Positions 44,041 to 55,216 of a stretch of 64,000 nt of DNA are shown one piece after another. Made by a program: the position numbers and the translations under genes. The notes beneath the pieces are model-generated. The model did not search any database. It saw only the letters and a list, made by a program, of their open reading frames with translations, and had not been told where the DNA came from. Source of the DNA: Bordetella sp. H567 (GTDB lineage: Bacteria; Pseudomonadota; Gammaproteobacteria; Burkholderiales; Burkholderiaceae_B); the NCBI RefSeq assembly GCF_001704295.1, contig NZ_CP012334.1:1996084-2060083 (forward strand), read 5' to 3'. Position 1 is the first letter of the stretch; every line of letters starts with the position of its first letter.

Positions 44041-44352
44041 ATGATCAAACTGAGAGATATCGCGAAGGCCTGCAAGAGCAAGAATGCCGGGCCCTTCGAA
44101 CTGACGCTGGACATCATGTTCGACAGCGAGGAAATGTTCGAAAAGGTGCGCCGCACGGGCGTGATCACGCGCGAGCGCATCGCCGCCCTGTACGGCGTTG
44201 CGCCGGCCGACGTCCTGTTCACGGAATATCCTCCGGCGCTGGCCTACAAGGCCACCTTGCCGCGGCGCATCGTATCGGGCGCCATCGGCGACACCGATGT
44301 CTACGGCGCCCAGCAGCATGCCCCGCTGCTGGACCTGGAGTTGCCGCTGTAG
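44041..44352 (+). CDS. DUF4387 family protein
   Basis: 103 residues, starting behind GGAGGGAG. The sequence IRDIAKACKSKNAGPFELTLDIMF is closely represented here (IKLRDIAKACKSKNAGPFEL) and is the hallmark of DUF4387. This small domain is found beside or fused to AtuA-like proteins and may be its subunit. Function unknown. Confidence 0.85.
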   Translation: MIKLRDIAKACKSKNAGPFELTLDIMFDSEEMFEKVRRTGVITRERIAALYGVAPADVLFTEYPPALAYKATLPRRIVSGAIGDTDVYGAQQHAPLLDLELPL

Positions 44353-44391
44353 CCCACGGGCCCGCGCCCGGCGCAAGAAAAGGAGACCGCC

Positions 44392-45312
44392 ATGTATGCC
44401 GCACCGCCGGTCATGAAGACCGAGGTTTTTACCCGCATTCCCGATCGATACCGCAAGGCCGGCCAGCTGTCGGAAGAGCGCCTGCGCGCCGGCAAGGGCA
44501 CGCGCGCCACCGACAGCTACATCGAAGGCCCGTCGTTCGACAAGGACGGCAACCTCTACCTGGTCGACATCGCCTTCGGCCTGATCTTCCGGGTGTCCCC
44601 ATCCGGCGAGGTGACGCAGCTGATCGAATACGACGGCGAGCCCAACGGCCTGAAGATCCATCGCGACGGCCGCATCTTCGTCGCCGATCACAAGAACGGC
44701 ATCCTGCTGCTGGATCCGGATGCCGGGCGCGTGGCCCCGTACATCCGCCGGGCGCGCACCGAAGGCTTCAAGGGTCCCAACGACCTGTTCTTCGCGTCCA
44801 ACGGCGATCTGTATTTCACCGACCAGGGCCAGACCGGCCTGCAGGACCCGTCGGGACGCGTGTACCGGCAGGGCGCCGACGGCTACCTGGAATGCCTGCT
44901 CGATAACGTGCCAAGTCCCAACGGCATCGTCATGAACCCGGCCGAGAACATGCTCTATGTGGCGGCCACGCGTGGCAACTGCGTGTGGCGCGCGATGGTG
45001 CTGCCCGACCGCTCGCTGACGCGGGTGGGGCTGTTCGTGCAGATGTCGGGCGGCAGCGGGCCGGATGGCATGGCGGTGGACCAGGCGGGCAACCTGTACG
45101 TCGCCCATGCCGGCATGGGGGCCGTGTGGAAGTTTTCGCCGCGCGGCGAACCGCTGCTGCGCATCGACTCCTGCATGGGACACATGACCACCAATATCGC
45201 CTTCGGCGGCGCGGACAACCGCGACCTGTACATCACCGAATCCGAGAGCGGCTGCGTCCTGGTCGCCCGCATGGATGTCCCGGGACAGCCCATGTATTCG
45301 CACGCCGCATGA
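44392..45312 (+). CDS. SMP-30/gluconolactonase-family lactonase
   Basis: 306 residues, ATG behind AGGAG. Six-bladed beta-propeller with repeated blade motifs such as EGPSFDKDGNLYLVD, EPNGLKIHRDGRIFVAD, GPNDLFFASNGDLYFTD and SPNGIVMNPAENMLYV; the Glu, Asn and Asp of these blades normally bind the catalytic metal. It probably opens a lactone produced in the pathway. Its stop overlaps an ATG in frame with the next gene. Confidence 0.85.
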   Translation: MYAAPPVMKTEVFTRIPDRYRKAGQLSEERLRAGKGTRATDSYIEGPSFDKDGNLYLVDIAFGLIFRVSPSGEVTQLIEYDGEPNGLKIHRDGRIFVADHKNGILLLDPDAGRVAPYIRRARTEGFKGPNDLFFASNGDLYFTDQGQTGLQDPSGRVYRQGADGYLECLLDNVPSPNGIVMNPAENMLYVAATRGNCVWRAMVLPDRSLTRVGLFVQMSGGSGPDGMAVDQAGNLYVAHAGMGAVWKFSPRGEPLLRIDSCMGHMTTNIAFGGADNRDLYITESESGCVLVARMDVPGQPMYSHAA

Positions 45313-45335
45313 CGCGCAACTTCACAGGAATATCC

Positions 45336-46406
45336 ATGGAAGACACTCTTTCCCCCCAGCCGGGCGCACAAGGCCTGGACCCCGCACGGGTGCGCGCACT
45401 GGCCGCGGCCGTCTACGAAAGCGCCGGGGTCCCGGCCGAAGATGCCTTGCTGGCGGCCGATACGCTGGTGCAGGCCGACCTGTGGGGCCACCAGTCGCAT
45501 GGCATGCTGCGCCTGGGCTGGTACTACGCCCGGCTGCGTTCGGGCGCCATGAAGGCGGTGACCGAGACCCGCATTGCCGTGGACGCGGGCGCGATCGCCG
45601 TCATGGATGGCGGCGACGGCGTGGGCCAGGTGGTGGCGCGTCGCGCGGTGGACGAAGCGGTGGGACGCGCGCGCAAGCATGGCGTGGGGGTGGTGTCCAT
45701 CCGCAACTCGAATCACTTCGGCACCTGCATGTATTACACCCGCATCGGCGCGCAGCAAGGCTGCGTGATGATGCTGATGAGCAACGCGGGGCCGAATATG
45801 GCGCCATGGGGCGGCCTGAAGAAGAAGATCGGCACCAACCCTTGGTCGATCGCCACGCCCGGCGGCAGCCATCCGCCGGTGGTCATGGACATGGCCAATT
45901 CCGGTGTCGCGCGCGGCAAGATCTATCTGGCCAACAAGCGTCGCGAGCCCATTCCGCCGCATTGGGCGATCGATGCGCAGGGCAACCCGACCACCGACCC
46001 GAAGGCGGCGCTGGAAGGCTTCATCCTGCCGATGGCCGGCCACAAGGGCTATGTCATGGGCGTGATGGTGGATGTGTTGTCCGGCGTGCTGTCGGGCAGC
46101 CAGTTCCTGGACGGCGTGCATGGGCCCTACGACCCGGTCAACCGCAGCGGCGCCGGCCATCTGATGATCGCCCTGAACGTGGCGGCGTTCCAGCCCATCG
46201 AGGAATTCAATTCCCGCATCGACGCCTATATCGCGTCGCTCAAGGACGTGCCGGTGGCGCCGGGCCATCGCCAGGTCTATTACCCCGGCGAGATGGAAGT
46301 CCAGGCGGATGCGGAGAACCGCGCGCATGGCCTGCTGCTTCCCGCCGATACGCTGGCCGACGTCGAGCGCGTCGCCCGCGAGGCCGGCGTGCCGTTTCCA
46401 TTCTGA
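45336..46406 (+). CDS. Ldh2-family NAD(P)-dependent 2-hydroxyacid (malate/lactate-type) dehydrogenase
   Basis: 356 residues from ATG 45336, six bases after AGGA; an ATG at 45309 overlapping the previous stop adds nine residues. Signatures of the Ldh2/ComC fold are ADLWGHQSHGMLRL, GVGVVSIRNSNHFG, NAGPNMAPWGG, IGTNPWSIATPGG and AGHKGYVMGVMVDVLSG. It should oxidise or reduce a 2-hydroxyacid intermediate. Part of the operon begun by the AtuA-like gene. Confidence 0.88.
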   Translation: MEDTLSPQPGAQGLDPARVRALAAAVYESAGVPAEDALLAADTLVQADLWGHQSHGMLRLGWYYARLRSGAMKAVTETRIAVDAGAIAVMDGGDGVGQVVARRAVDEAVGRARKHGVGVVSIRNSNHFGTCMYYTRIGAQQGCVMMLMSNAGPNMAPWGGLKKKIGTNPWSIATPGGSHPPVVMDMANSGVARGKIYLANKRREPIPPHWAIDAQGNPTTDPKAALEGFILPMAGHKGYVMGVMVDVLSGVLSGSQFLDGVHGPYDPVNRSGAGHLMIALNVAAFQPIEEFNSRIDAYIASLKDVPVAPGHRQVYYPGEMEVQADAENRAHGLLLPADTLADVERVAREAGVPFPF

Positions 46407-46477
46407 TTTCTGGCCGCGCGAGCGGCCGCCACGCGCTAGGCCGGGGCGCGGGCCCCGGCAAGAGAGGAGACCTTCAA

Positions 46478-47455
46478 ATGAACCGCAAATTGATCATCCA
46501 GGCCGGCGTTGCCCTGTGCGCGCAGGCCATCCTTGCATCGGCATCGGCGCAGAGCGCGCATGAGTTTCCGACCAGGACGGTGCGCGTCGTTTCCGGCCTG
46601 GCGGCCGGCAGCAGCATGGATCTGGTCGCGCGAACCATCAGCCCCAAGCTGGCCGAGCTCTGGGGCCAGGCCGTCATCGTCGAGAATCGCGCCGGCGCGG
46701 CAGGCAATATCGCCGCCGAACACGTGGCGCGTGCGGACGACGGGCACACGCTGCTGATCGCGCAGAACGCGATCACCGTCAGCGCCTCCCTGTATCCGCG
46801 GTTGAAATACAGCCTGCGCAAGGACCTGAAGGCGGTCTCGCAGGTGACGGCAATGCCGCATGTGGTGGTGGTGACGCCCAGCCTGCCGGTCAAGAACCTG
46901 CAGGACTTCATCAACCTGGCGAAGTCCAAGCCCAACCAATTGAATTTCAGCAGTGCCGGCATCGGCAACGCCGACGACATGGCCGCGGAGCTGTTCGCCA
47001 CCATGGCGCACCTGCAGATGATGCATGTGCCTTACACCGGCGGCTCGCAGGCCCTGACGGCCGCCGCGGCGGGCGATGTGCAGCTGTACTTCCCGGGGCT
47101 GCCCGTCAGTCTTCCGCTGGTGAAGGCAGGCAAGGTGCACGCGCTGGCGGTGACCAGCAAGACGCGCTCGCCCGCCTTGCCGGACGTGCCCACCATGGAA
47201 GAGGCTGGCCTGCCCGGCTATGAAACGGTGTTGTGGTATGGGCTGTATGCGCCCGCGTCCATGCCCGATGCGACAGTCAAGCGTATTTCGGCCGATATCC
47301 AGAAGGTCCTGCAGATGCCGGACGTGAAGGAAAAACTGGGTGGCGCCGGCATCGACGTGGTGGGCAGCACGCCGGAGCAATTCCAGGCGTTCACCAACGC
47401 GGAGATCGATCGTTGGGCCACCATCGTGCGCGAGCGCAACCTGAAGGTGGATTGA
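46478..47455 (+). CDS. Bug/TctC-family periplasmic solute-binding protein
   Basis: 325 residues; ATG behind GAGAGGAG. Signal peptide ends near ASASAQS. The mature protein has FPTRTVRVVSGLAAGSSMDLVAR, VENRAGAAGNIAAEHVARA, FSSAGIGNADDM and PDVPTMEEAGLPGYE, all typical of the very large Bordetella Bug family. These bind carboxylates and similar compounds; the matching TctAB permease is not here, as is common. It ends the catabolic operon and probably senses or delivers the substrate. Confidence 0.93.
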   Translation: MNRKLIIQAGVALCAQAILASASAQSAHEFPTRTVRVVSGLAAGSSMDLVARTISPKLAELWGQAVIVENRAGAAGNIAAEHVARADDGHTLLIAQNAITVSASLYPRLKYSLRKDLKAVSQVTAMPHVVVVTPSLPVKNLQDFINLAKSKPNQLNFSSAGIGNADDMAAELFATMAHLQMMHVPYTGGSQALTAAAAGDVQLYFPGLPVSLPLVKAGKVHALAVTSKTRSPALPDVPTMEEAGLPGYETVLWYGLYAPASMPDATVKRISADIQKVLQMPDVKEKLGGAGIDVVGSTPEQFQAFTNAEIDRWATIVRERNLKVD

Positions 47456-47503: not shown

Positions 47504-48235
47504 CTACAGCACGGCTTCCGCGACCAGGCGGAACGCCGGGGCCAGCTTGACCGAGGCCTCCGGACGCTCGAGCGCGTAGTCCAGGTTCATCTGGGCGATC
47601 TGCACGTGCTCGGATGCGATGGCCTGGGCCCGCGTGCCCTCGCCGCGTTCCATGGCCTGCACCAGGCTGTGGTGCTGCCGGTGGGCGATATACAGCCACT
47701 GGCGGCCTTCTCCTATCGTCGACTGCATCGGCAGCATGGCGCTTGCGGCGGCAAAGGGAAGGCGATTGTTGACCTCGATGGCCCGTATCAAGGCCGCGTT
47801 TCCCGACGCTTCCACGACCAGCTGGTGGAAGCGCGTGTTCATGTCGGTGTAGGCGGCGTAGTCGTCCAGGTCGAGTTCCGGTTTGTTCAACGCGCGATCC
47901 CCGGCCTTCAGGCATTCGTGCAGGCCCAGCGCCAGTTGCCGGGACACCCCGTGTTCGGCCACCAGCCGGGCCGCCATGCCTTCCAGGTGGCCCCGTACCG
48001 CGATCGCGTCGGCGATCTCCGCCGCCGTCAGGCGCCGCATGACGTAGCCGCCCGCCGGGGACGGCTCGACCAGCCCCTCCTGTTCCAGCGTCGTCAGCGC
48101 CAGCCGCACCGGTGTGCGCGAGGCCTTCAAGCGCTCGGCCAGCGCCACTTCCCCCAGCCGTTCGCCCGGCGAAAACTCGCCTTTCAGGATGAGGTCGCGC
48201 AGTTGCACCAGGACGCGTTCCTGTTGCGATTCCAT
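47504..48235 (-). CDS. GntR-family regulator, FadR/VanR (FCD) subgroup
   Basis: 243 residues. N-terminal winged helix (ILKGEFSPGERLGEVALAERL, then SRTPVRLALTTLEQEGLVE) and a C-terminal FCD domain with the metal/ligand His set around DMNTRFHQLVVEASGN and HRQHHSLVQAMERG. It is divergent from the oxygenase operon starting at 48580 and convergent with the Bug gene, so the oxygenase operon is its likely target. Confidence 0.9.
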   Translation of the reverse strand: MESQQERVLVQLRDLILKGEFSPGERLGEVALAERLKASRTPVRLALTTLEQEGLVEPSPAGGYVMRRLTAAEIADAIAVRGHLEGMAARLVAEHGVSRQLALGLHECLKAGDRALNKPELDLDDYAAYTDMNTRFHQLVVEASGNAALIRAIEVNNRLPFAAASAMLPMQSTIGEGRQWLYIAHRQHHSLVQAMERGEGTRAQAIASEHVQIAQMNLDYALERPEASVKLAPAFRLVAEAVL

Positions 48236-48579
48236 GTGGGTTCTCCGGGACGGTGGGTCGTCGATATGCCCACCATTCTAGTGCCTGGCGGTGTCGTGGC
48301 GTAGGCGTCGACCAAAATATGTTCGTCGATGTATGCAACATAGGTCTGTGGTGCGCCTTTCACCTAGGATTTTCCCTTAGTCATGCATCCCCGTTTTATC
48401 AAATAAATCAAGCAAAAACAACGATATAACCACTATTTCTCACCTGCGGTCGCAGTAGGTCAACGCGAGGTGCTGCATACATCGATTGAAAAACTGAATT
48501 CACTCCTTTAACGTTGCATGCAAGGACGGAAGGCGTGCATACGCGCCCGCAGCGTCTGCATCCTGGAGGAGTAGCGATC
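48236..48579. promoter_or_regulatory. AT-rich divergent control region with GntR operator candidates
   Basis: No gene. TCGATGTATGCAACA (48326-48340) reappears inverted as TGCTGCATACATCGA (48471-48485), 14 of 15 bases identical, about 145 bases apart. A perfect palindrome TTGCATGCAA lies at 48514-48523. All share a TGCAT core expected for FadR/VanR-type regulators. The spacing suggests repression by looping. Confidence 0.65.
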
Positions 48580-49890
48580 ATGATGAGCGCCCAGCAAAAC
48601 GAATTGATTACCCGCGTCGGGCCCGGCACGCCGGCCGGCCGCCTGCTGCGGAACTATTGGCAACCTGTTGCCCTGGTGGAGGAACTGCCGTCCATCCGGC
48701 CGCTGAAGGCGGTTCGCCTGATGGGGCAGGACTTCGTGGTGTTCCGCGACGAGGACGGCCGCTACGGCATGCTGGACCGCGACTGTCCGCACCGGGGCGC
48801 GGACCTGGCCGGCGGGCGCCTGGAGAACGGCGGCCTGCGCTGCGCGTTCCATGGCTGGCTCTTCGACGTCAAGGGATCGTGCCTGGCCACGCCGGGAGAG
48901 CCGGCGGGCAGCACCTTGTGCAAGAAGATCCGCCAGCGCGCCTATCCGGTCGTCGAACGCAGCGGCATTCTGTTCGCCTACATCGGCGAAGGCGAGCCCC
49001 CGGCGTTTCCCCATTTCGATTGCTTCGCGGCGCCGGGCGAATACACCTTCGCGTTCAAGGGGCTGTTCGAATGCAATTGGCTGCAGGCCCTGGAGGTGGG
49101 CATCGACCCCGCGCATGCTTCCTACCTGCATCGCTTTTTCGAGGACGAGGACACCGGGGCCAGCTACGGCAAGCAGTTCCGCGGGGCCTCGGCGAATTCC
49201 GAGATGCCGATCACCAAGGTGCTGCGCGAGTATGAAGCGCCCGAAATCCTGGTGAACCCGACGGAATATGGGCTGCGGCTGATCGCCAAGCGGCCCCTGG
49301 ACGAAGCGCAAACCCATGTGCGGGTGACGAACCTGGTGTTTCCACAGGCCTTCGTCATACCGATGAGCGCCGAGATGACCATCACCCAATGGCATGTCCC
49401 GGTGGACGACCGGAACTGCTACTGGTATGCCGTCTTCACCAGCTTCACCACGCCCACGGACAAGGTCAAGATGCGCGCGCAGCGGTTGGAGCTGTACGAG
49501 CTTCCCGACTATACGTCGCGCCGGAACAAGCGCAACAACTACGGATTCGACCCGCAGGAACAGCAGACCCAGACCTACACCGGCATGGGCTTCGACATCA
49601 ATGTGCACGATCAATGGGCCGTCGAGTCGCAGGGCGACATCCAGGACAGGACCCGCGAGCATCTGGGCACCACCGACAAGGGCATCATCGCATACCGGCG
49701 CCTGCTGGTGGACGCCATTGAAAAAGCGCAGGCGGGGCAGAAGACCCTGATGGTGATCGACGAGGCGCAGGCATCGCAGATGACGGGGCCGGCATCGATA
49801 GACGGCATCGGCCCGGCGGACCGCTGGGACGACTATTGGAAGGAGTCGGATGCGGCGCGGCGCGAACGCGCGCCCTGGTGCGCCAAGTAA
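48580..49890 (+). CDS. Rieske non-heme iron oxygenase, alpha subunit (phthalate-dioxygenase type)
   Basis: 436 residues from ATG 48580 (MMSAQQNELITR), eight bases after GGAGGAG. The Rieske 2Fe-2S motif has Cys69, His71, Cys88 and His91 (CPHRG and CAFHGW). The mononuclear iron site is marked by Asp176-Pro-Ala-His179-x4-His184. Sequence and length fit the homo-oligomeric phthalate/vanillate class, and no beta subunit gene is present. Electrons should come from the ferredoxin and reductase encoded two and three genes on. The neighbouring ligase and hydrolase suggest an amine, possibly gamma-glutamylated, as substrate. Confidence 0.9.
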   Translation: MMSAQQNELITRVGPGTPAGRLLRNYWQPVALVEELPSIRPLKAVRLMGQDFVVFRDEDGRYGMLDRDCPHRGADLAGGRLENGGLRCAFHGWLFDVKGSCLATPGEPAGSTLCKKIRQRAYPVVERSGILFAYIGEGEPPAFPHFDCFAAPGEYTFAFKGLFECNWLQALEVGIDPAHASYLHRFFEDEDTGASYGKQFRGASANSEMPITKVLREYEAPEILVNPTEYGLRLIAKRPLDEAQTHVRVTNLVFPQAFVIPMSAEMTITQWHVPVDDRNCYWYAVFTSFTTPTDKVKMRAQRLELYELPDYTSRRNKRNNYGFDPQEQQTQTYTGMGFDINVHDQWAVESQGDIQDRTREHLGTTDKGIIAYRRLLVDAIEKAQAGQKTLMVIDEAQASQMTGPASIDGIGPADRWDDYWKESDAARRERAPWCAK

Positions 49891-49965
49891 GGTCCAGACC
49901 CTTTCCCGATATCCTGAGGAGGCGCGTCCACGGCGATACCGTCGCCGGCACGGCGCGATAACACC

Positions 49966-51402
49966 ATGTCCTTCGTCGAAATCCACGGACTGTGGAATGC
50001 CGAGCAGCATGCCGCCCATGCGGCGCATCTGGAACGCCTGAAAGGCAGCGGCGTCCAACTTGTGCGTTTTTCGTTTCCCGACCAGCACGGGCTCTTGCGC
50101 GGCAAGACCCTGGTGCTGGACGAGGCCATCAAGGCTTTCAAGAGCGGCGTCACCTGCACGACGACGCTGTTTGCCAAGGACACGTCCCACCGGACTGTCT
50201 TTCCCGTTTTTTCCCATGGCGGCGGCTTCGACATGCCCGAGATGCAAGGCGCCTGCGACACCTTGCTGGTGGCGGACCCGCTGACGTTCCGGGTGCTGCC
50301 CTGGGCGCCGCACACGGGCTGGGTCCTGTGCGACGTCTATTTCGCCAATGGCAAACCGGTGCCCTTCGCCACACGCCATCTGTACGGACGCGCCCTGGCG
50401 GAGCTGGACCAGCGCGGCTATGAATTCATCTCGGGCCTGGAGGTGGAGTTCCATGTATTCAAGGTGAACGACGCCCGCATGAAGCCCGAGCACGCGGGCC
50501 AGCCTGGGGAGCCGCCGGACGTCGACGTGCTGACGCATGGCTATCAATACCTGACGGAGCTGCGCTACGACGCGGTGGATTCGGTCATCGAGATGATCCG
50601 CCGCGGCATCGACGGGCTGGAGCTGCCGGTGCGCACGCTGGAGGTCGAGTACGGGCCCAGCCAGCTGGAGTTCACCTTCGCCCCGTCGGGCGGGATCCGC
50701 AGCGCGGACGACATGGTCCTGTTCCGCAGCGCGGTCAAGCAGATCTGCCAGCGCAACGGCTATCACGCGACCTTCATGTGCCGCCCGCGGATTCCCAATG
50801 TGGTGTCCAGCGGCTGGCACCTGCATCAGTCGCTGGTGCGCAAGTCCGATGGCAAGAATGCCTTCATGCCGTCGGCAGAGGGGCCGATGCTGTCGGAAGT
50901 CGGCCAGCACTACCTGGCCGGCCTGCTCGCGCATGCCCAGGCGGCGACCGCCCTGTCCACGCCCACCATCAACGGCTACAAGCGATATCGGCCGTATTCG
51001 AACGCGCCCGACCGGGCAAGCTGGGGCAGGGACAATCGCGGCGTCATGGCGCGCGTGCTGGGCGGCAGGAACGATCCCGCCACGCGGATAGAAAACCGCG
51101 TGGGCGAGCCGGCGGCCAACCCCTATCTATACCTTGGTTCGCAGATCCTGTCCGGCATGGATGGCATGGACCGGAAACTGGCGCTGGGCCCGTCGGCGGA
51201 TGTGCCTTACGAAGCCGAGGCGCCGGCGCTGCCCCATACCCTGGCGGACGCGATCGAGGCGCTGCGCGGCGATGCTTGCCTGCGCCGCGGCCTGGGGTCG
51301 CAGTTCATCGACTATTTCTGCAAGTTGAAGGAAGCGGAAATCCAACGCTTCAACCTCGAAGTCACCGAGTGGGAACACCGCGAGTATTTCGGGACCTTCT
51401 GA
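49966..51402 (+). CDS. Glutamine-synthetase-like gamma-glutamyl-amine ligase
   Basis: 478 residues. GS fold with N-terminal beta-grasp (VQLVRFSFPDQHGLLRGK) and catalytic domain. Active-site stretches: GLEVEFHVF, VEYGPSQLEFTFAP, SSGWHLHQSLV, TINGYKRYRPY and RIENRVGEPAANPYLYLG. It is not a housekeeping GS: the N-terminal half and the GS loops differ, and no adenylylation Tyr motif is seen. In aniline, isopropylamine and putrescine catabolism, such enzymes (TdnQ/AtdA1, IpuC, PuuA) make a gamma-glutamyl amide at the cost of ATP. The partner hydrolase lies downstream in the operon. Confidence 0.85.
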   Translation: MSFVEIHGLWNAEQHAAHAAHLERLKGSGVQLVRFSFPDQHGLLRGKTLVLDEAIKAFKSGVTCTTTLFAKDTSHRTVFPVFSHGGGFDMPEMQGACDTLLVADPLTFRVLPWAPHTGWVLCDVYFANGKPVPFATRHLYGRALAELDQRGYEFISGLEVEFHVFKVNDARMKPEHAGQPGEPPDVDVLTHGYQYLTELRYDAVDSVIEMIRRGIDGLELPVRTLEVEYGPSQLEFTFAPSGGIRSADDMVLFRSAVKQICQRNGYHATFMCRPRIPNVVSSGWHLHQSLVRKSDGKNAFMPSAEGPMLSEVGQHYLAGLLAHAQAATALSTPTINGYKRYRPYSNAPDRASWGRDNRGVMARVLGGRNDPATRIENRVGEPAANPYLYLGSQILSGMDGMDRKLALGPSADVPYEAEAPALPHTLADAIEALRGDACLRRGLGSQFIDYFCKLKEAEIQRFNLEVTEWEHREYFGTF

Positions 51403-51439
51403 CGGCGCGTCGCCGTTCATCCCTGTGCGGAGCTGAATC

Positions 51440-51763
51440 ATGCCTATCATCACTTACATCCTGCGCGACGGCGCCCGCCGAGAGGTCGACGTGCCCGAAG
51501 GCACGAGCGTCATGGAGGCCGCCGTACGCGAGAACATACGGGGCATCGACGCCGAATGCGGCGGATGCCTGTCCTGTGCGACCTGCCATGTCTATATCGA
51601 TGCTTCTTCCACCGGCGCGATTCCCGATCCCGAGGACGAAGAGACCGAACTCCTGGAAGGCGTCGCCGCCGAACGCCGCCCGGAAAGCCGGCTCAGCTGC
51701 CAGATCATCGTGACGCAGGCTGCCGCCGGGCTGGTCGTGCGTATCCCGGACCACCAGGGGTGA
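51440..51763 (+). CDS. 2Fe-2S ferredoxin (adrenodoxin/putidaredoxin type)
   Basis: 107 residues. Cluster ligands are Cys40, Cys46, Cys49 and Cys87 (C-x5-C-x2-C-x37-C), with the acidic surface DPEDEETELL used by adrenodoxin-type ferredoxins to dock with reductase and oxygenase. An extra Cys43 lies inside the loop. ATG preceded by GGAG. It carries electrons from the next gene's product to the Rieske oxygenase. Confidence 0.93.
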   Translation: MPIITYILRDGARREVDVPEGTSVMEAAVRENIRGIDAECGGCLSCATCHVYIDASSTGAIPDPEDEETELLEGVAAERRPESRLSCQIIVTQAAAGLVVRIPDHQG

Positions 51764-51767
51764 TGCC

Positions 51768-53015
51768 ATGCAAGCGAACCTAGTGGTGATAGGGGCGTCC
51801 TATGCCGGCGTGCAGATCGCGGCATCGGTGCGCGAGCAGGGTCATGAAGGGCGCGTCGTCATGGTCGGCGACGAGCATGCCGAGCCCTACCATCGTCCGC
51901 CGCTGTCCAAGGCCTTCCTGGCCGGCAACTACGACCCCGGCCGGCTGCAGCTGCGGTCGCCGGCCTTCTTCGAGGAGGCGCGCATCGAACTGCGGTCCGG
52001 CGTGCGCGCCGTGCGGGTGGACCGCGCTGCGCACACCGTCGAACTGGACGACGGCAGCCGGCTGCCCTACGACAAGCTGGCGTTCGCGACGGGTGCCCGG
52101 CCACGCAGGCTGGACTGCGACGGCGCCGGGCTGCGGGGCGTGCATTATCTGCGCAGCCTGCGCGACGCCGCCGAGCTTGCCATCGAGATGCTGTCGGCGC
52201 GTAGCGCGGTCGTGGTGGGCGGCGGGTATATCGGCCTGGAAGTCGCCGCCTCGCTGGTCAAGGCCGGCGTCGCCGTGACGGTGGTGGAGGCCGCCGAGCG
52301 CGTACTGGCGCGCGTGTCCTCGCCCTGGATGTCCGCGTTCGTGGACCAGGTGCACCGGGACCAGGGTGTCCGGTTCGCGCTGGGACGCAAGGTCGCCGCC
52401 GTGCGTGGAGAACAGGGGCAGGTGCGCGGCGTCGAACTGGATGACGGCACGTTGCTGGCGTGCGACCTGGTCGTTGCCGGCATCGGCATCGAACCCAATG
52501 TGGAGCTTGCGGCGGATTGCGGCCTGGCCGTGCAAGGCGGTATCCTCGTCGACCAAATGGCCCGCACCAGCGATCCCGATATCGTGGCTGCCGGGGACTG
52601 CGCGTCTTTCCGGTGCGTCTGGATGCCCCCCGGCACGCCGGCGTGCCGGATCGAATCGGTGCAGAACGCGAACGACATGGCAAGGACCGCGGCGGCCACG
52701 CTGGTGGGCCGCACGGAGCCCCATGTGTCGCTGCCCTGGTTCTGGTCCGACCAGTACGACCTGAAACTGCAGATGGCGGGCCTGAGCGCGGGCGCCACGG
52801 AATATGCCGTGCGGGGCTCCGTCGAGCAGCGCAAGTTCTCGGTCTTCTATTTCCGCGGCGAGCATCTGGCCGCCGTGGACAGCGTCAACCGTCCACAGGA
52901 CCATATGCTGGCCCGCAAGCTGCTGGCCGCCCGCGTCCCCGTGGAACCGGCGCAGGCGCGCGACGCCGGCTTTGACTTGAAATCGCTGCTGGCTAGCACG
53001 GCGGAGGCGCGGTGA
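51768..53015 (+). CDS. FAD-dependent ferredoxin reductase (BphA4/putidaredoxin-reductase type)
   Basis: 415 residues. FAD-binding GASYAGVQIAASVRE at the N-terminus, NAD-binding VVVGGGYIGLEVAAS near residue 150, and the second FAD motif PDIVAAGDCASF. The C-terminal domain contains WFWSDQYDLKLQ, typical of oxygenase-coupled reductases. It starts four bases after the ferredoxin stop and its own stop overlaps the next start as GTGA, so the electron chain is tightly co-translated. Confidence 0.93.
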   Translation: MQANLVVIGASYAGVQIAASVREQGHEGRVVMVGDEHAEPYHRPPLSKAFLAGNYDPGRLQLRSPAFFEEARIELRSGVRAVRVDRAAHTVELDDGSRLPYDKLAFATGARPRRLDCDGAGLRGVHYLRSLRDAAELAIEMLSARSAVVVGGGYIGLEVAASLVKAGVAVTVVEAAERVLARVSSPWMSAFVDQVHRDQGVRFALGRKVAAVRGEQGQVRGVELDDGTLLACDLVVAGIGIEPNVELAADCGLAVQGGILVDQMARTSDPDIVAAGDCASFRCVWMPPGTPACRIESVQNANDMARTAAATLVGRTEPHVSLPWFWSDQYDLKLQMAGLSAGATEYAVRGSVEQRKFSVFYFRGEHLAAVDSVNRPQDHMLARKLLAARVPVEPAQARDAGFDLKSLLASTAEAR

Positions 53016-53791
53016 ACACACAGGATACGCGGCGCCCCATCGTGGGCGTGGTGTGCGACAGGTTCTACGTGGGCGAGCATGACCTGCATAGCGCCAAGCA
53101 CAGCTATATCGACGCCTTGATATCGGTGGCCGGCGTCGCTCCCGTGCTGATTCCCGCGACGGATCAGCTGGCGGATGTGGCGCCCTACCTGGACGCCGTC
53201 AGCGGCCTGCTCTTTCCGGGCGGGGCGTCGAACGTCGAGCCGGCCAGGTACGGCGGGCCCGCGCGTCCCGATATGCTGCTGGATCGGGACCGCGACCATG
53301 TGGCCATCGCCTTGATGCAGGGCGCGGCCTCGCGCGACATGCCCATCCTGGCGATATGCCGGGGCTTCCAGGAGCTGAACGTGGCGTTCGGCGGCACGCT
53401 CAGCCCCGACATATACACCGATGGCTACGCCGACTACCATCGCGAGGATCCGCGCGAACCGCTGGAGGCGCGCTACCGGTTCAAGCACCCGATCGCGCTG
53501 ACGGAGGGCGGTAAGCTGGAGGCCTTGGCGGGTGCCGGCACCGTCACCGTGAACTCGCTGCACATGCAAGGGGTGGGCTCGCTCGCGTCGCCGTTGGCGG
53601 TCGAGGCGGCGGCGCCGGATGGATTGGTCGAGGCCATACGGCTGCGCCGGCATGCCTTCGCGATAGGCGTGCAATGGCACCCGGAAACCAGCGCGCGGAC
53701 CGACGGTTTTTCGCGCGCCTTGTTCGAGGCGTTCGGCGCCGCCTGTCGGCGCCATGCGGCAATGCAGTCCCAACCTGCCTATAACGAATGA
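53012..53791 (+). CDS. Class I glutamine-amidotransferase-like gamma-glutamyl hydrolase (PuuD type, peptidase C26)
   Basis: 259 residues from GTG 53012, which overlaps the reductase stop. Catalytic triad is visible: Cys116 in AICRGFQELNV, His223 and Glu225 in GVQWHPE; VNSLHMQG matches the PuuD substrate loop. Family members hydrolyse gamma-glutamyl amides (gamma-glutamyl-GABA for PuuD). With the ligase at 49966 this would remove the glutamyl group, either from the product or from excess intermediate. Confidence 0.88.
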   Translation: MNTQDTRRPIVGVVCDRFYVGEHDLHSAKHSYIDALISVAGVAPVLIPATDQLADVAPYLDAVSGLLFPGGASNVEPARYGGPARPDMLLDRDRDHVAIALMQGAASRDMPILAICRGFQELNVAFGGTLSPDIYTDGYADYHREDPREPLEARYRFKHPIALTEGGKLEALAGAGTVTVNSLHMQGVGSLASPLAVEAAAPDGLVEAIRLRRHAFAIGVQWHPETSARTDGFSRALFEAFGAACRRHAAMQSQPAYNE

Positions 53792-53848
53792 CCGCGTCCG
53801 GGGCGGCATGCGCCGCGCCCGGAACGCGTTCCAGGACCGGAGGAAGAC

Positions 53849-55216
53849 ATGAGTGGTAAAGACGTAATCGACGTGCAGCGTTTCCTGAACGAGCATCCGT
53901 TCTCGCGCCTGCAGTGGCTGATATTCGCCATGTGTTTTGTGATCGTCGTGCTGGACGGTTTCGATACGGCGGCGGTGGGCTTCATCGCACCGTCGCTCAT
54001 CGCCGAGTGGCACGTGCAAAAGTCCAGCCTGGGGCCGGTGCTGAGCGCCGCGCTGTTCGGCCTGGCCTTCGGCGCCATCGTTTCGGGACCGCTGTCGGAT
54101 CGGTGGGGGCGGCGCGGCTTGCTGATCGGCTCGGTCGCGTTGTTTGGCGTGGCGTCGCTGGCCTGCGTGCTGGCGGGTAGCCTGACGCAGCTGACCGTAC
54201 TGCGATTCGTGACCGGCGTCGGCCTGGGCGCGGCGATGCCCAACGCCGTCACGCTGGTAGGCGAGTATTGTCCGGATCGCCGCCGCGCCACCTTGGTGAA
54301 CCTGATGTTCTGCGGCTTCCCGCTGGGGGCCGCGGTAGGCGGCTTTCTTGCCGCCTGGATGATTCCGCAATTCGGCTGGCGCAGCGTGCTGGTGCTGGGC
54401 GGCGTGGTTCCGCTGGTATTGGCGGCGATCCTGCTGGCCGTGCTGCCGGAATCCGTGCGCTACCTCGTCGCCAAGGGCAAGCCCGCCGAACGGATACGCG
54501 ATGTGTTGCGCCGGATTTCCCCGGACGCCGCCACGATCCAGGCCTTCACGCTGCGCGAAGCGGCGGCGGGTCCCGCGCGCAAGAGCGATATGCGGCTCGT
54601 GCTGAGCGGTTCCTATATCGTGGGGTCGCTGATGCTGTGGATCACCTACTTCATGGGCCTGGTGATTTTCTACGGCCTGATCAACTGGATGCCCGTCCTG
54701 TTCAAGGAAGCGGGGTTCAGCGCCGGGCAATCGACCTTGCTGTCGGCCTTGTTTCCACTAGGAGGCGTGGGCGCCGTCGTGTGCGGCATGCTGATGGACC
54801 GCTTCAACGCGACCAAGGTCGTCGCCGGCTGCTATGCCCTGACGGCGCTGAGCGTGTACGCCATCGGCCAGTCGCTGGGCAGCGTAGGGGCGCTCATCGG
54901 CGCGATCCTCGTCGCGGGCGTGTTGATGAATACGGCGCAGTGCTCCATGCCCGCGCTCGCGGCGGCGTTCTACCCCACGCAGGGACGCGCCACCGGGGTC
55001 GCCTGGATGCTGGGCGTGGGGCGCTTCGGCGGCATCGCGGGATCGTTCCTGGTCGCGGAGCTGAGCTTGCGCCACCTCAGCCTGGAAGGGATCTTCAGCG
55101 TGGTGGCCGTCGCCGGCGTGATCTCCTGCGTGGCCTTGCTGGTAAAGGTGGCCGCGTGCCGCGACATCCCTGTCGTGCAGCCGGTGGAGGGCGAGCCCGT
55201 CCATCCGGGGCACTAG
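53849..55216 (+). CDS. MFS transporter, aromatic acid:H+ symporter (AAHS) family
   Basis: 455 residues, ATG behind GGAGGAAG, twelve membrane helices. Family marks are VVLDGFDTAAVGFIAPSL in the first helix with its essential Asp, SGPLSDRWGRRGLLIGS between helices 2 and 3, and a central loop after helix 6. Relatives PcaK and BenK import protocatechuate or benzoate-type acids. It ends the operon and suggests that the compound taken up is an aromatic acid, perhaps an aminoaromatic acid. Confidence 0.88.
   Translation: MSGKDVIDVQRFLNEHPFSRLQWLIFAMCFVIVVLDGFDTAAVGFIAPSLIAEWHVQKSSLGPVLSAALFGLAFGAIVSGPLSDRWGRRGLLIGSVALFGVASLACVLAGSLTQLTVLRFVTGVGLGAAMPNAVTLVGEYCPDRRRATLVNLMFCGFPLGAAVGGFLAAWMIPQFGWRSVLVLGGVVPLVLAAILLAVLPESVRYLVAKGKPAERIRDVLRRISPDAATIQAFTLREAAAGPARKSDMRLVLSGSYIVGSLMLWITYFMGLVIFYGLINWMPVLFKEAGFSAGQSTLLSALFPLGGVGAVVCGMLMDRFNATKVVAGCYALTALSVYAIGQSLGSVGALIGAILVAGVLMNTAQCSMPALAAAFYPTQGRATGVAWMLGVGRFGGIAGSFLVAELSLRHLSLEGIFSVVAVAGVISCVALLVKVAACRDIPVVQPVEGEPVHPGH

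Follow-up and report, generated by a model that had tools for sequence, protein, structure and literature searches.

The sad operon of Hydrogenophaga intermedia PBC comprises sadA, sadB and a ferredoxin gene and encodes a 4-aminobenzenesulfonate 3,4-dioxygenase (PMC5632844, citing Gan et al. 2012). The paper describes the operon as fairly conserved in Hydrogenophaga and finds conservation of the 4-sulfocatechol genes in H. intermedia alone, and it leaves the natural substrate of the Sad dioxygenase open, arguing for a natural close relative of 4-aminobenzenesulfonate. A comparable arrangement is found in a compact plus-strand operon at 48580-55216 of a 64,000-nucleotide stretch of Bordetella sp. 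H567 (contig NZ_CP012334.1, positions 1,996,084 to 2,060,083), the whole of which is called the window. This operon probably serves the import and breakdown of an aromatic acid with a para-amino group, the likeliest being 4-aminobenzoate (para-aminobenzoic acid, pABA), which would be glutamylated and then dioxygenated to protocatechuate. Judged by the published description of the sad operon, both hold a Rieske oxygenase, a glutamine synthetase (GS)-like protein and a ferredoxin for an anionic para-substituted aniline. The window operon differs in adding a reductase of its own, a hydrolase of the PuuD kind and an aromatic acid:H+ symporter (AAHS) carrier, and in a substrate that is probably a carboxylate.

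With the aniline dioxygenase systems Tdn, Atd and Dca and with NpaA (1-naphthylamine), the operon shares gamma-glutamylation by a GS-like enzyme before Rieske oxygenation and a hydrolase that can reverse it. Those systems have an alpha-beta oxygenase and a class-I glutamine amidotransferase (GAT), whereas the window has an alpha-only phthalate-type oxygenase, a PuuD-type hydrolase and a lysine in the ligase tunnel. An aniline-type (Tdn/Atd) cluster was rejected because family scans of the operon's proteins matched no beta-subunit family and the hydrolase belongs to Peptidase_C26, not to the class-I GATs of the AtdA2/TdnT kind. The Puu pathway (PuuA/PuuD) likewise pairs a GS-like ligase with a Peptidase_C26 gamma-glutamyl hydrolase, but the window ligase is not close to PuuA, and that pathway is not known to include a Rieske oxygenase.

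Gene calls and family scans agree with the original prediction on seven genes, their families, a divergent GntR gene and the lack of a beta subunit. All seven were found at the following positions of the window, listed here together with candidate operator sites:

47504..48235, minus strand: GntR/FCD-family regulator (PF07729 57.5 bits, PF00392 54.1 bits)
48330..48522, no strand assigned: candidate operator sites TGYATRCA at 48330, 48474 and 48515, between the GntR and oxygenase genes
48580..49890, plus strand: Rieske non-haem iron oxygenase, phthalate/LigXa type, alpha only (PF00355 69.3 bits, PF19301 (LigXa_C) 101.4)
49966..51402, plus strand: GS-like gamma-glutamyl arylamine ligase (GoaS type) with tunnel residue K71 (Gln-synt_C 270.6 bits; NpaA1 8wwu 442 bits)
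51440..51763, plus strand: [2Fe-2S] ferredoxin (Fer2; PF00111 41.7 bits; cysteine motif from residue 40)
51768..53015, plus strand: FAD-dependent ferredoxin reductase (PF07992 (Pyr_redox_2) and PF14759 (Reductase_C); HcaD/AndAa-like, below equivalog cut-offs)
53012..53791, plus strand: PuuD-like gamma-glutamyl hydrolase (PF07722 (Peptidase_C26) 206.4 bits; 7d4r 209 bits; PuuD 6vtv 170 bits)
53849..55216, plus strand: AAHS/PcaK-like carrier of the major facilitator superfamily, aromatic acid:H+ symporter (TIGR00895 421.1 bits, cut-off 418.55)

The oxygenase start is the ATG chosen downstream of a GGAGGAG box, and the hydrolase gene begins with GTG and overlaps the reductase gene by 4 bp.

The oxygenase-ligase pair and its relatives

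The Rieske and GS-like genes form a pair that is carried by well over a hundred genomes. In 150 opened loci (25 same-family, 80 named-genome, 40 further and 5 plasmid loci; H1, H3 and H6, three of the best plasmid matches, lie outside the opened set), the Rieske gene always stands upstream of the GS-like gene on the same strand, with a gap below 250 bp in 147, and the ligase is full-length in 149, with 143 distinct sequences. A ligase match at E <= 1e-100 was found in 27 of 200 genomes of the window's family; 26 of these, the window's own included, carry the pair, and the exception, L055, is an aniline-type cluster with GS-like, class-I GAT, alpha, beta and reductase genes. The named-genome scan kept the best 80 of at least 581 relatives, and each of these best 80, which come from Paraburkholderia, Caballeronia, Cupriavidus, Pigmentiphaga, Bradyrhizobium, Afipia, Rhodopseudomonas and other genera, has the same Rieske gene ahead of its GS-like gene. 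At E <= 1e-150 the oxygenase occurs in at least 21 of 398 genomes of the phylum, at least 62 of 299 of a second family and at least 17 of 299 of a third, which are lower bounds with the best 4-5 candidates scored per genome; at E <= 1e-120 it occurs in 9 of 60 Cupriavidus genomes. The GS-like gene adjoins it in 40/40 opened matches from the phylum and second family, and the window's order of oxygenase, GS-like gene and ferredoxin recurs in 29 of the 40 further loci, one having its ferredoxin upstream and ten lacking a ferredoxin match. Within the window's genus one of six genomes has the module. Co-occurrence of the six families in other genomes, a check proposed with the original prediction, was found as well: in 6/150 loci genes for PuuD, AAHS, ferredoxin and reductase are all located less than 8 kb from the pair, and the six-gene complement is present in the fetched stretch of 7 of 14 further Burkholderiaceae loci (two repeat earlier genomes), the Cupriavidus examples having PuuD and AAHS arranged differently.

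Among PDB sequences the ligase matched NpaA1 (8wwu) with 442 bits and the next entry with 177 bits, and it scored below the cut-offs of all four listed GS-type NCBIfam models (GlnA 220.6 vs 429.15, PuuA-type 221.6 vs 650). Based on the GlnA score and the gap between NpaA1 and the next PDB entry, an ordinary glutamine synthetase was rejected, and the ligase appears by sequence to belong to the GoaS clade with NpaA1, distinct from glutamine synthetase. NpaA1 is a 1-naphthylamine-glutamylating enzyme, a gamma-glutamyl-arylamine synthetase, whose arylamine tunnel consists of the loop V68-M81 with F75, F86 and W235 and whose F75A variant almost loses aniline activity (PMC11335346). At the F75 position the alignment places F in the aniline-type L055 and K71 in the window ligase, and the lysine is present in 144/144 distinct relatives (143 from the opened loci and L237). 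Other tunnel positions differ too: G71 is T67 (S in a few relatives), M81 is mostly T77, W235 is Y229, and in the window's clade S79 gives way to H75. F86 persists as F82, and V201 corresponds to Y195, L055 likewise having a tyrosine there. With F75 replaced by lysine the tunnel would be cationic and polar, as expected for an anionic substrate. A FastTree phylogeny of the ligases joins the window's copy to nine of Paraburkholderia/Caballeronia type with support 1.0. A second clade, L188-L207, probably of Comamonadaceae, has oxygenases 54-60% and ligases 42-47% identical to the window's; its ligases keep the tunnel lysine and carry D at 75 and K at 80 in 19/20 each.

The oxygenase contains the Rieske ligands C69/H71/C88/H91 and the iron-site residues H179/H184, and its closest PDB sequences are 7fhr, 7fjl and 9ina, all phthalate-type. 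A fold search with its predicted model returned as the nearest structures isophthalate dioxygenase and the terephthalate- or phthalate-bound forms of phthalate dioxygenase; the oxygenase and ligase models each have a predicted local distance difference test score of 71, which is moderate, so pocket conclusions are not drawn from either. R248 is arginine in 148/148 relatives and aligns with R244 of 7fjl, a phthalate-binding residue. D356, presumably the third iron ligand by alignment to 7fjl, is D in 143 of 148 relatives and N in five (L040, L080, L124, L210 and L236, the copy of Novosphingobium resinovorum SA1). An alpha-only chain, the CxH...CxxH motif, a 2-His iron site, phthalate dioxygenases as nearest relatives and the aligned aspartate thus place the enzyme in the phthalate family. 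The isophthalate (9ina/9ioy) and phthalate (7fjl/7v25/7v28) dioxygenases of Comamonas testosteroni KF1 share its fold and family at about 30% identity; no ligase is known in those systems, and compared with them the operon oxygenase would be expected to act on a gamma-glutamyl anilide.

Substrate and proposed pathway

The pABA reading draws on the tunnel lysine, the isophthalate/phthalate-type oxygenase and the aromatic-acid carrier, together with PnbB neighbours, Pca-type regulators and the co-occurrence of PcaH and LigA. A gene of the PnbB family (PF16155, 4-hydroxylaminobenzoate lyase) was found in the fetched stretch of 16 of 22 distinct Burkholderiaceae loci, in 15 of them within 8 kb of the ligase start and in L234 at 11.7 kb, and a nitroreductase gene in 12 of 22; these counts leave out the PnbB piece of L258 (short, 43 bits) and the nitroreductase of L261 (40 bits), with which they become 17/22 and 13/22. 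The PnbB-family gene of L261 is only 43% identical. The PnbB arrangement differs between Paraburkholderia/Caballeronia and Cupriavidus, and the neighbour recurs in Methylobacterium nodulans. By family these neighbours are apparent 4-nitrobenzoate genes leading to protocatechuate. Furthermore, L072 has a divergent IclR gene of the PcaR/PcaU/PobR subfamily (317.5 bits, cut-off 284.75), the IclR neighbours of L107 and L104 scoring 277.9 and 255.3 bits, under that cut-off. Among the 200 family genomes, PcaH is present in 23/26 with the module vs 28/174 others, LigA in 22/26 vs 18/174, either of the two in 25/26 vs 46/174, and PnbB in 23/26 vs 42/174. The window's own genome encodes PcaH (341.7 bits, cut-off 296.4). 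Near 4.76 Mb of that genome, in a PcaH/PnbB region, lie two more Rieske oxygenases (L238 and L239), 34% and 32% identical to that of the operon.

In the proposed pathway, the AAHS carrier would import the acid, after which the GS-like ligase would make gamma-glutamyl-4-aminobenzoate by attaching L-glutamate to its aryl amine at the expense of ATP. Electrons would pass from NAD(P)H through the reductase and ferredoxin to the oxygenase, which would dioxygenate C3/C4 of the glutamylated acid. The unstable dioxygenated product would re-aromatise to protocatechuate, with the nitrogen leaving as glutamine or an equivalent, and protocatechuate would be cleaved by the PcaGH route, whose genes lie elsewhere in the genome. 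The PuuD-like enzyme is envisaged to hydrolyse surplus gamma-glutamyl amide, and the GntR protein to regulate the operon. The original prediction had put forward an operon in which glutamylation precedes oxygenation by an alpha-only enzyme of phthalate type, and had suggested an aminoaromatic acid as the substrate; both points are borne out as far as sequence can do so.

Several observations weigh against this pathway. PnbB lies beside the module in 0/25 same-family and 0/40 further loci, and in only 6 of the best 80 of at least 581 named loci, all six Burkholderiaceae; the PnbB gene of the window's own genome is 2.7 Mb from the operon and outside any nitrobenzoate cluster, and PF16155 is common (65/200 genomes), its function in the module's neighbours being a matter of family name only. 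The Fisher p < 1e-9 for the genome-content comparison ignores common descent, the 26 module genomes representing 9 genera. Bradyrhizobium-type loci have benzoate-CoA ligase (36/150) and BoxR (40/150) genes within 8 kb, neighbours that point to aromatic acids generally. The glutamyl group or glutamate, and not a ring carboxylate, could be what the tunnel lysine and oxygenase residue R248 bind, the clade L188-L207 may act on another substrate, perhaps a different anionic amine, and by family assignment a PuuD-type hydrolase occupies the place of the class-I amidotransferase of relatives. Cupriavidus metallidurans CH34 grows on pABA (PMC8879955), and in the genome taken as CH34 (G1151) the oxygenase was not found at E <= 1e-120 with all 7 candidates scored; another pABA route therefore exists.

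That the operon is instead a sad operon proper, converting 4-aminobenzenesulfonate (sulfanilate) to 4-sulfocatechol, is unlikely. Its gene kinds are those of sadA, sadB and ferredoxin as published, and the sulfanilate degrader N. resinovorum SA1 carries on plasmid pSA3 (L236) a pair that is 69% (oxygenase) and 61% (ligase) identical and that we infer to be its sulfanilate enzyme. The SA1 ligase keeps the tunnel lysine but departs from its clade with N at 75 and 77, and in the FastTree phylogeny it groups with alphaproteobacterial copies, apart from the window. The module is also widespread, the Burkholderiaceae neighbours indicate carboxylates, and conservation of the 4-sulfocatechol genes is limited to H. 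intermedia though sad is fairly conserved in the genus (PMC5632844). Around the SA1 pair lie genes for maleylacetate reductase, ferredoxin, reductase and glutaminase and folP; the glutaminase would fit glutamine release. The extra folP (dihydropteroate synthase) near genes for pABA analogues is suggestive. The oxygenase matched on a Hydrogenophaga plasmid (L231) is a different enzyme; it is 37% identical, and the 7 kb inspected there carry no annotated GS-like gene.

Another aminobenzoate (2-amino, 3-amino or amino-hydroxy) is quite unlikely as the substrate. The carboxylate arguments apply to it equally, and it would suit the benzoate-CoA ligase and BoxR genes of the Bradyrhizobium-type loci, but PnbB and PcaR-type neighbours and the Sad precedent indicate the para position, and the known anthranilate dioxygenases are not known to need glutamylation. 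Highly improbable is a neutral arylamine (aniline, toluidine or chloroaniline) degraded as in Tdn/Atd: proximity of the ligase to NpaA1, with F82 retained and Y195 as in L055, speaks for it, but is opposed by F75 -> K with the further polar tunnel-loop changes of the relatives, by the phthalate-type oxygenase, by an aromatic-acid carrier in the operon and by the different build of the true aniline-type cluster L055 (class-I GAT, alpha, beta) in the same family. The probability of an aliphatic amine or polyamine of the Puu/Ipu type, with the PuuD-like enzyme as product hydrolase, is close to negligible; such a hydrolase is present, but the ligase is far from PuuA (221.6 bits, cut-off 650), PuuD lies near the module in only 7/150 loci, and the AAHS carrier and aromatic-acid neighbours point elsewhere.

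pABA serves as a precursor of folate and also arises when folate, drugs and azo dyes are broken down. Growth on pABA for which no genes could be assigned is reported in two genome papers (PMC6460240, PMC8879955); the second refers to "previously described catabolic pathways" for pABA and failed to find their genes, which means that a pABA pathway of some kind is in print. The original prediction held the combination of genes to be undescribed, which does not stand: the sad operon has oxygenase, GS-like protein and ferredoxin, hence the architecture is known in kind, and the Rieske and GS-like pair is widespread. In the open literature searched, most subscription papers being outside that scope, no Rieske and GS-like operon assigned to an aminobenzoate was found. 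The mab cluster of Comamonas QT12 was rejected as a precedent, since the terms glutamine synthetase, Rieske and ferredoxin are absent from the accessible text of PMC9584955. What is new here is the case for pABA as substrate, the tunnel lysine, and an operon complete with a reductase, a carrier and a PuuD-type hydrolase of its own. With a named candidate pathway, a specific residue (K71) and specific neighbours, the question of the natural Sad substrate becomes directly testable. If the pABA pathway is true, glutamylation before Rieske oxygenation extends to aminobenzoates, with a PuuD-type hydrolase replacing the class-I amidotransferase. More tentatively, the module may represent the Sad system in its natural and ancestral form, by which proteobacteria widely recover the carbon and nitrogen of pABA (e.g. 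from folate breakdown) through gamma-glutamylation and 3,4-dioxygenation to protocatechuate, and from which sulfanilate use would have arisen by ligase tunnel-loop changes (75, 77).

Hydrolase, carrier, regulator and adjoining genes

The hydrolase residues Cys116, His223 and Glu225, named in the original prediction, are present in the sequence. Its top PDB match, 7d4r, is annotated "probable glutamine amidotransferase"; its best family is Peptidase_C26, with PF00117 also over cut-off (47.2 vs 22.8), and the class-I GATs of L040, L046, L049, L055 and L080 matched PF00117 alone at E <= 1e-8. Among the 150 loci the PuuD-type hydrolase (7 loci) and the class-I GAT (16 loci) are never found together within 8 kb, so the two look like alternatives. 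Polaromonas JS666 has the complete GAT form with a LIV-type ATP-binding cassette importer. An amidase-signature enzyme (PF01425) is added in some operons (L046, L050 and relatives) and lies within 8 kb in 8/150 loci; in operons of the L046/L050 type it might release the amine from an amide. The AAHS carrier scored 500.2 bits against the PcaK equivalog, under the cut-off of 770.

GntR orthologues 81-86% identical stand beside the Paraburkholderia/Caballeronia operons. Three of the five TGYATRCA matches in the 64-kb window fall inside the 193 bp between the GntR and oxygenase genes; the window total of five is not unusual, being reached in 25/100 shuffles. Sites 1 and 2 are matched in 4/4 aligned relatives, and the cluster is a candidate operator. 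A sigma-70 scan found no promoter. Upstream, a plus-strand cluster at 44041-47455 encodes a DUF4387 protein, an SMP-30/gluconolactonase, a malate/L-lactate dehydrogenase (Ldh_2) and a TctC-type receptor, and looks like a separate organic-acid unit.

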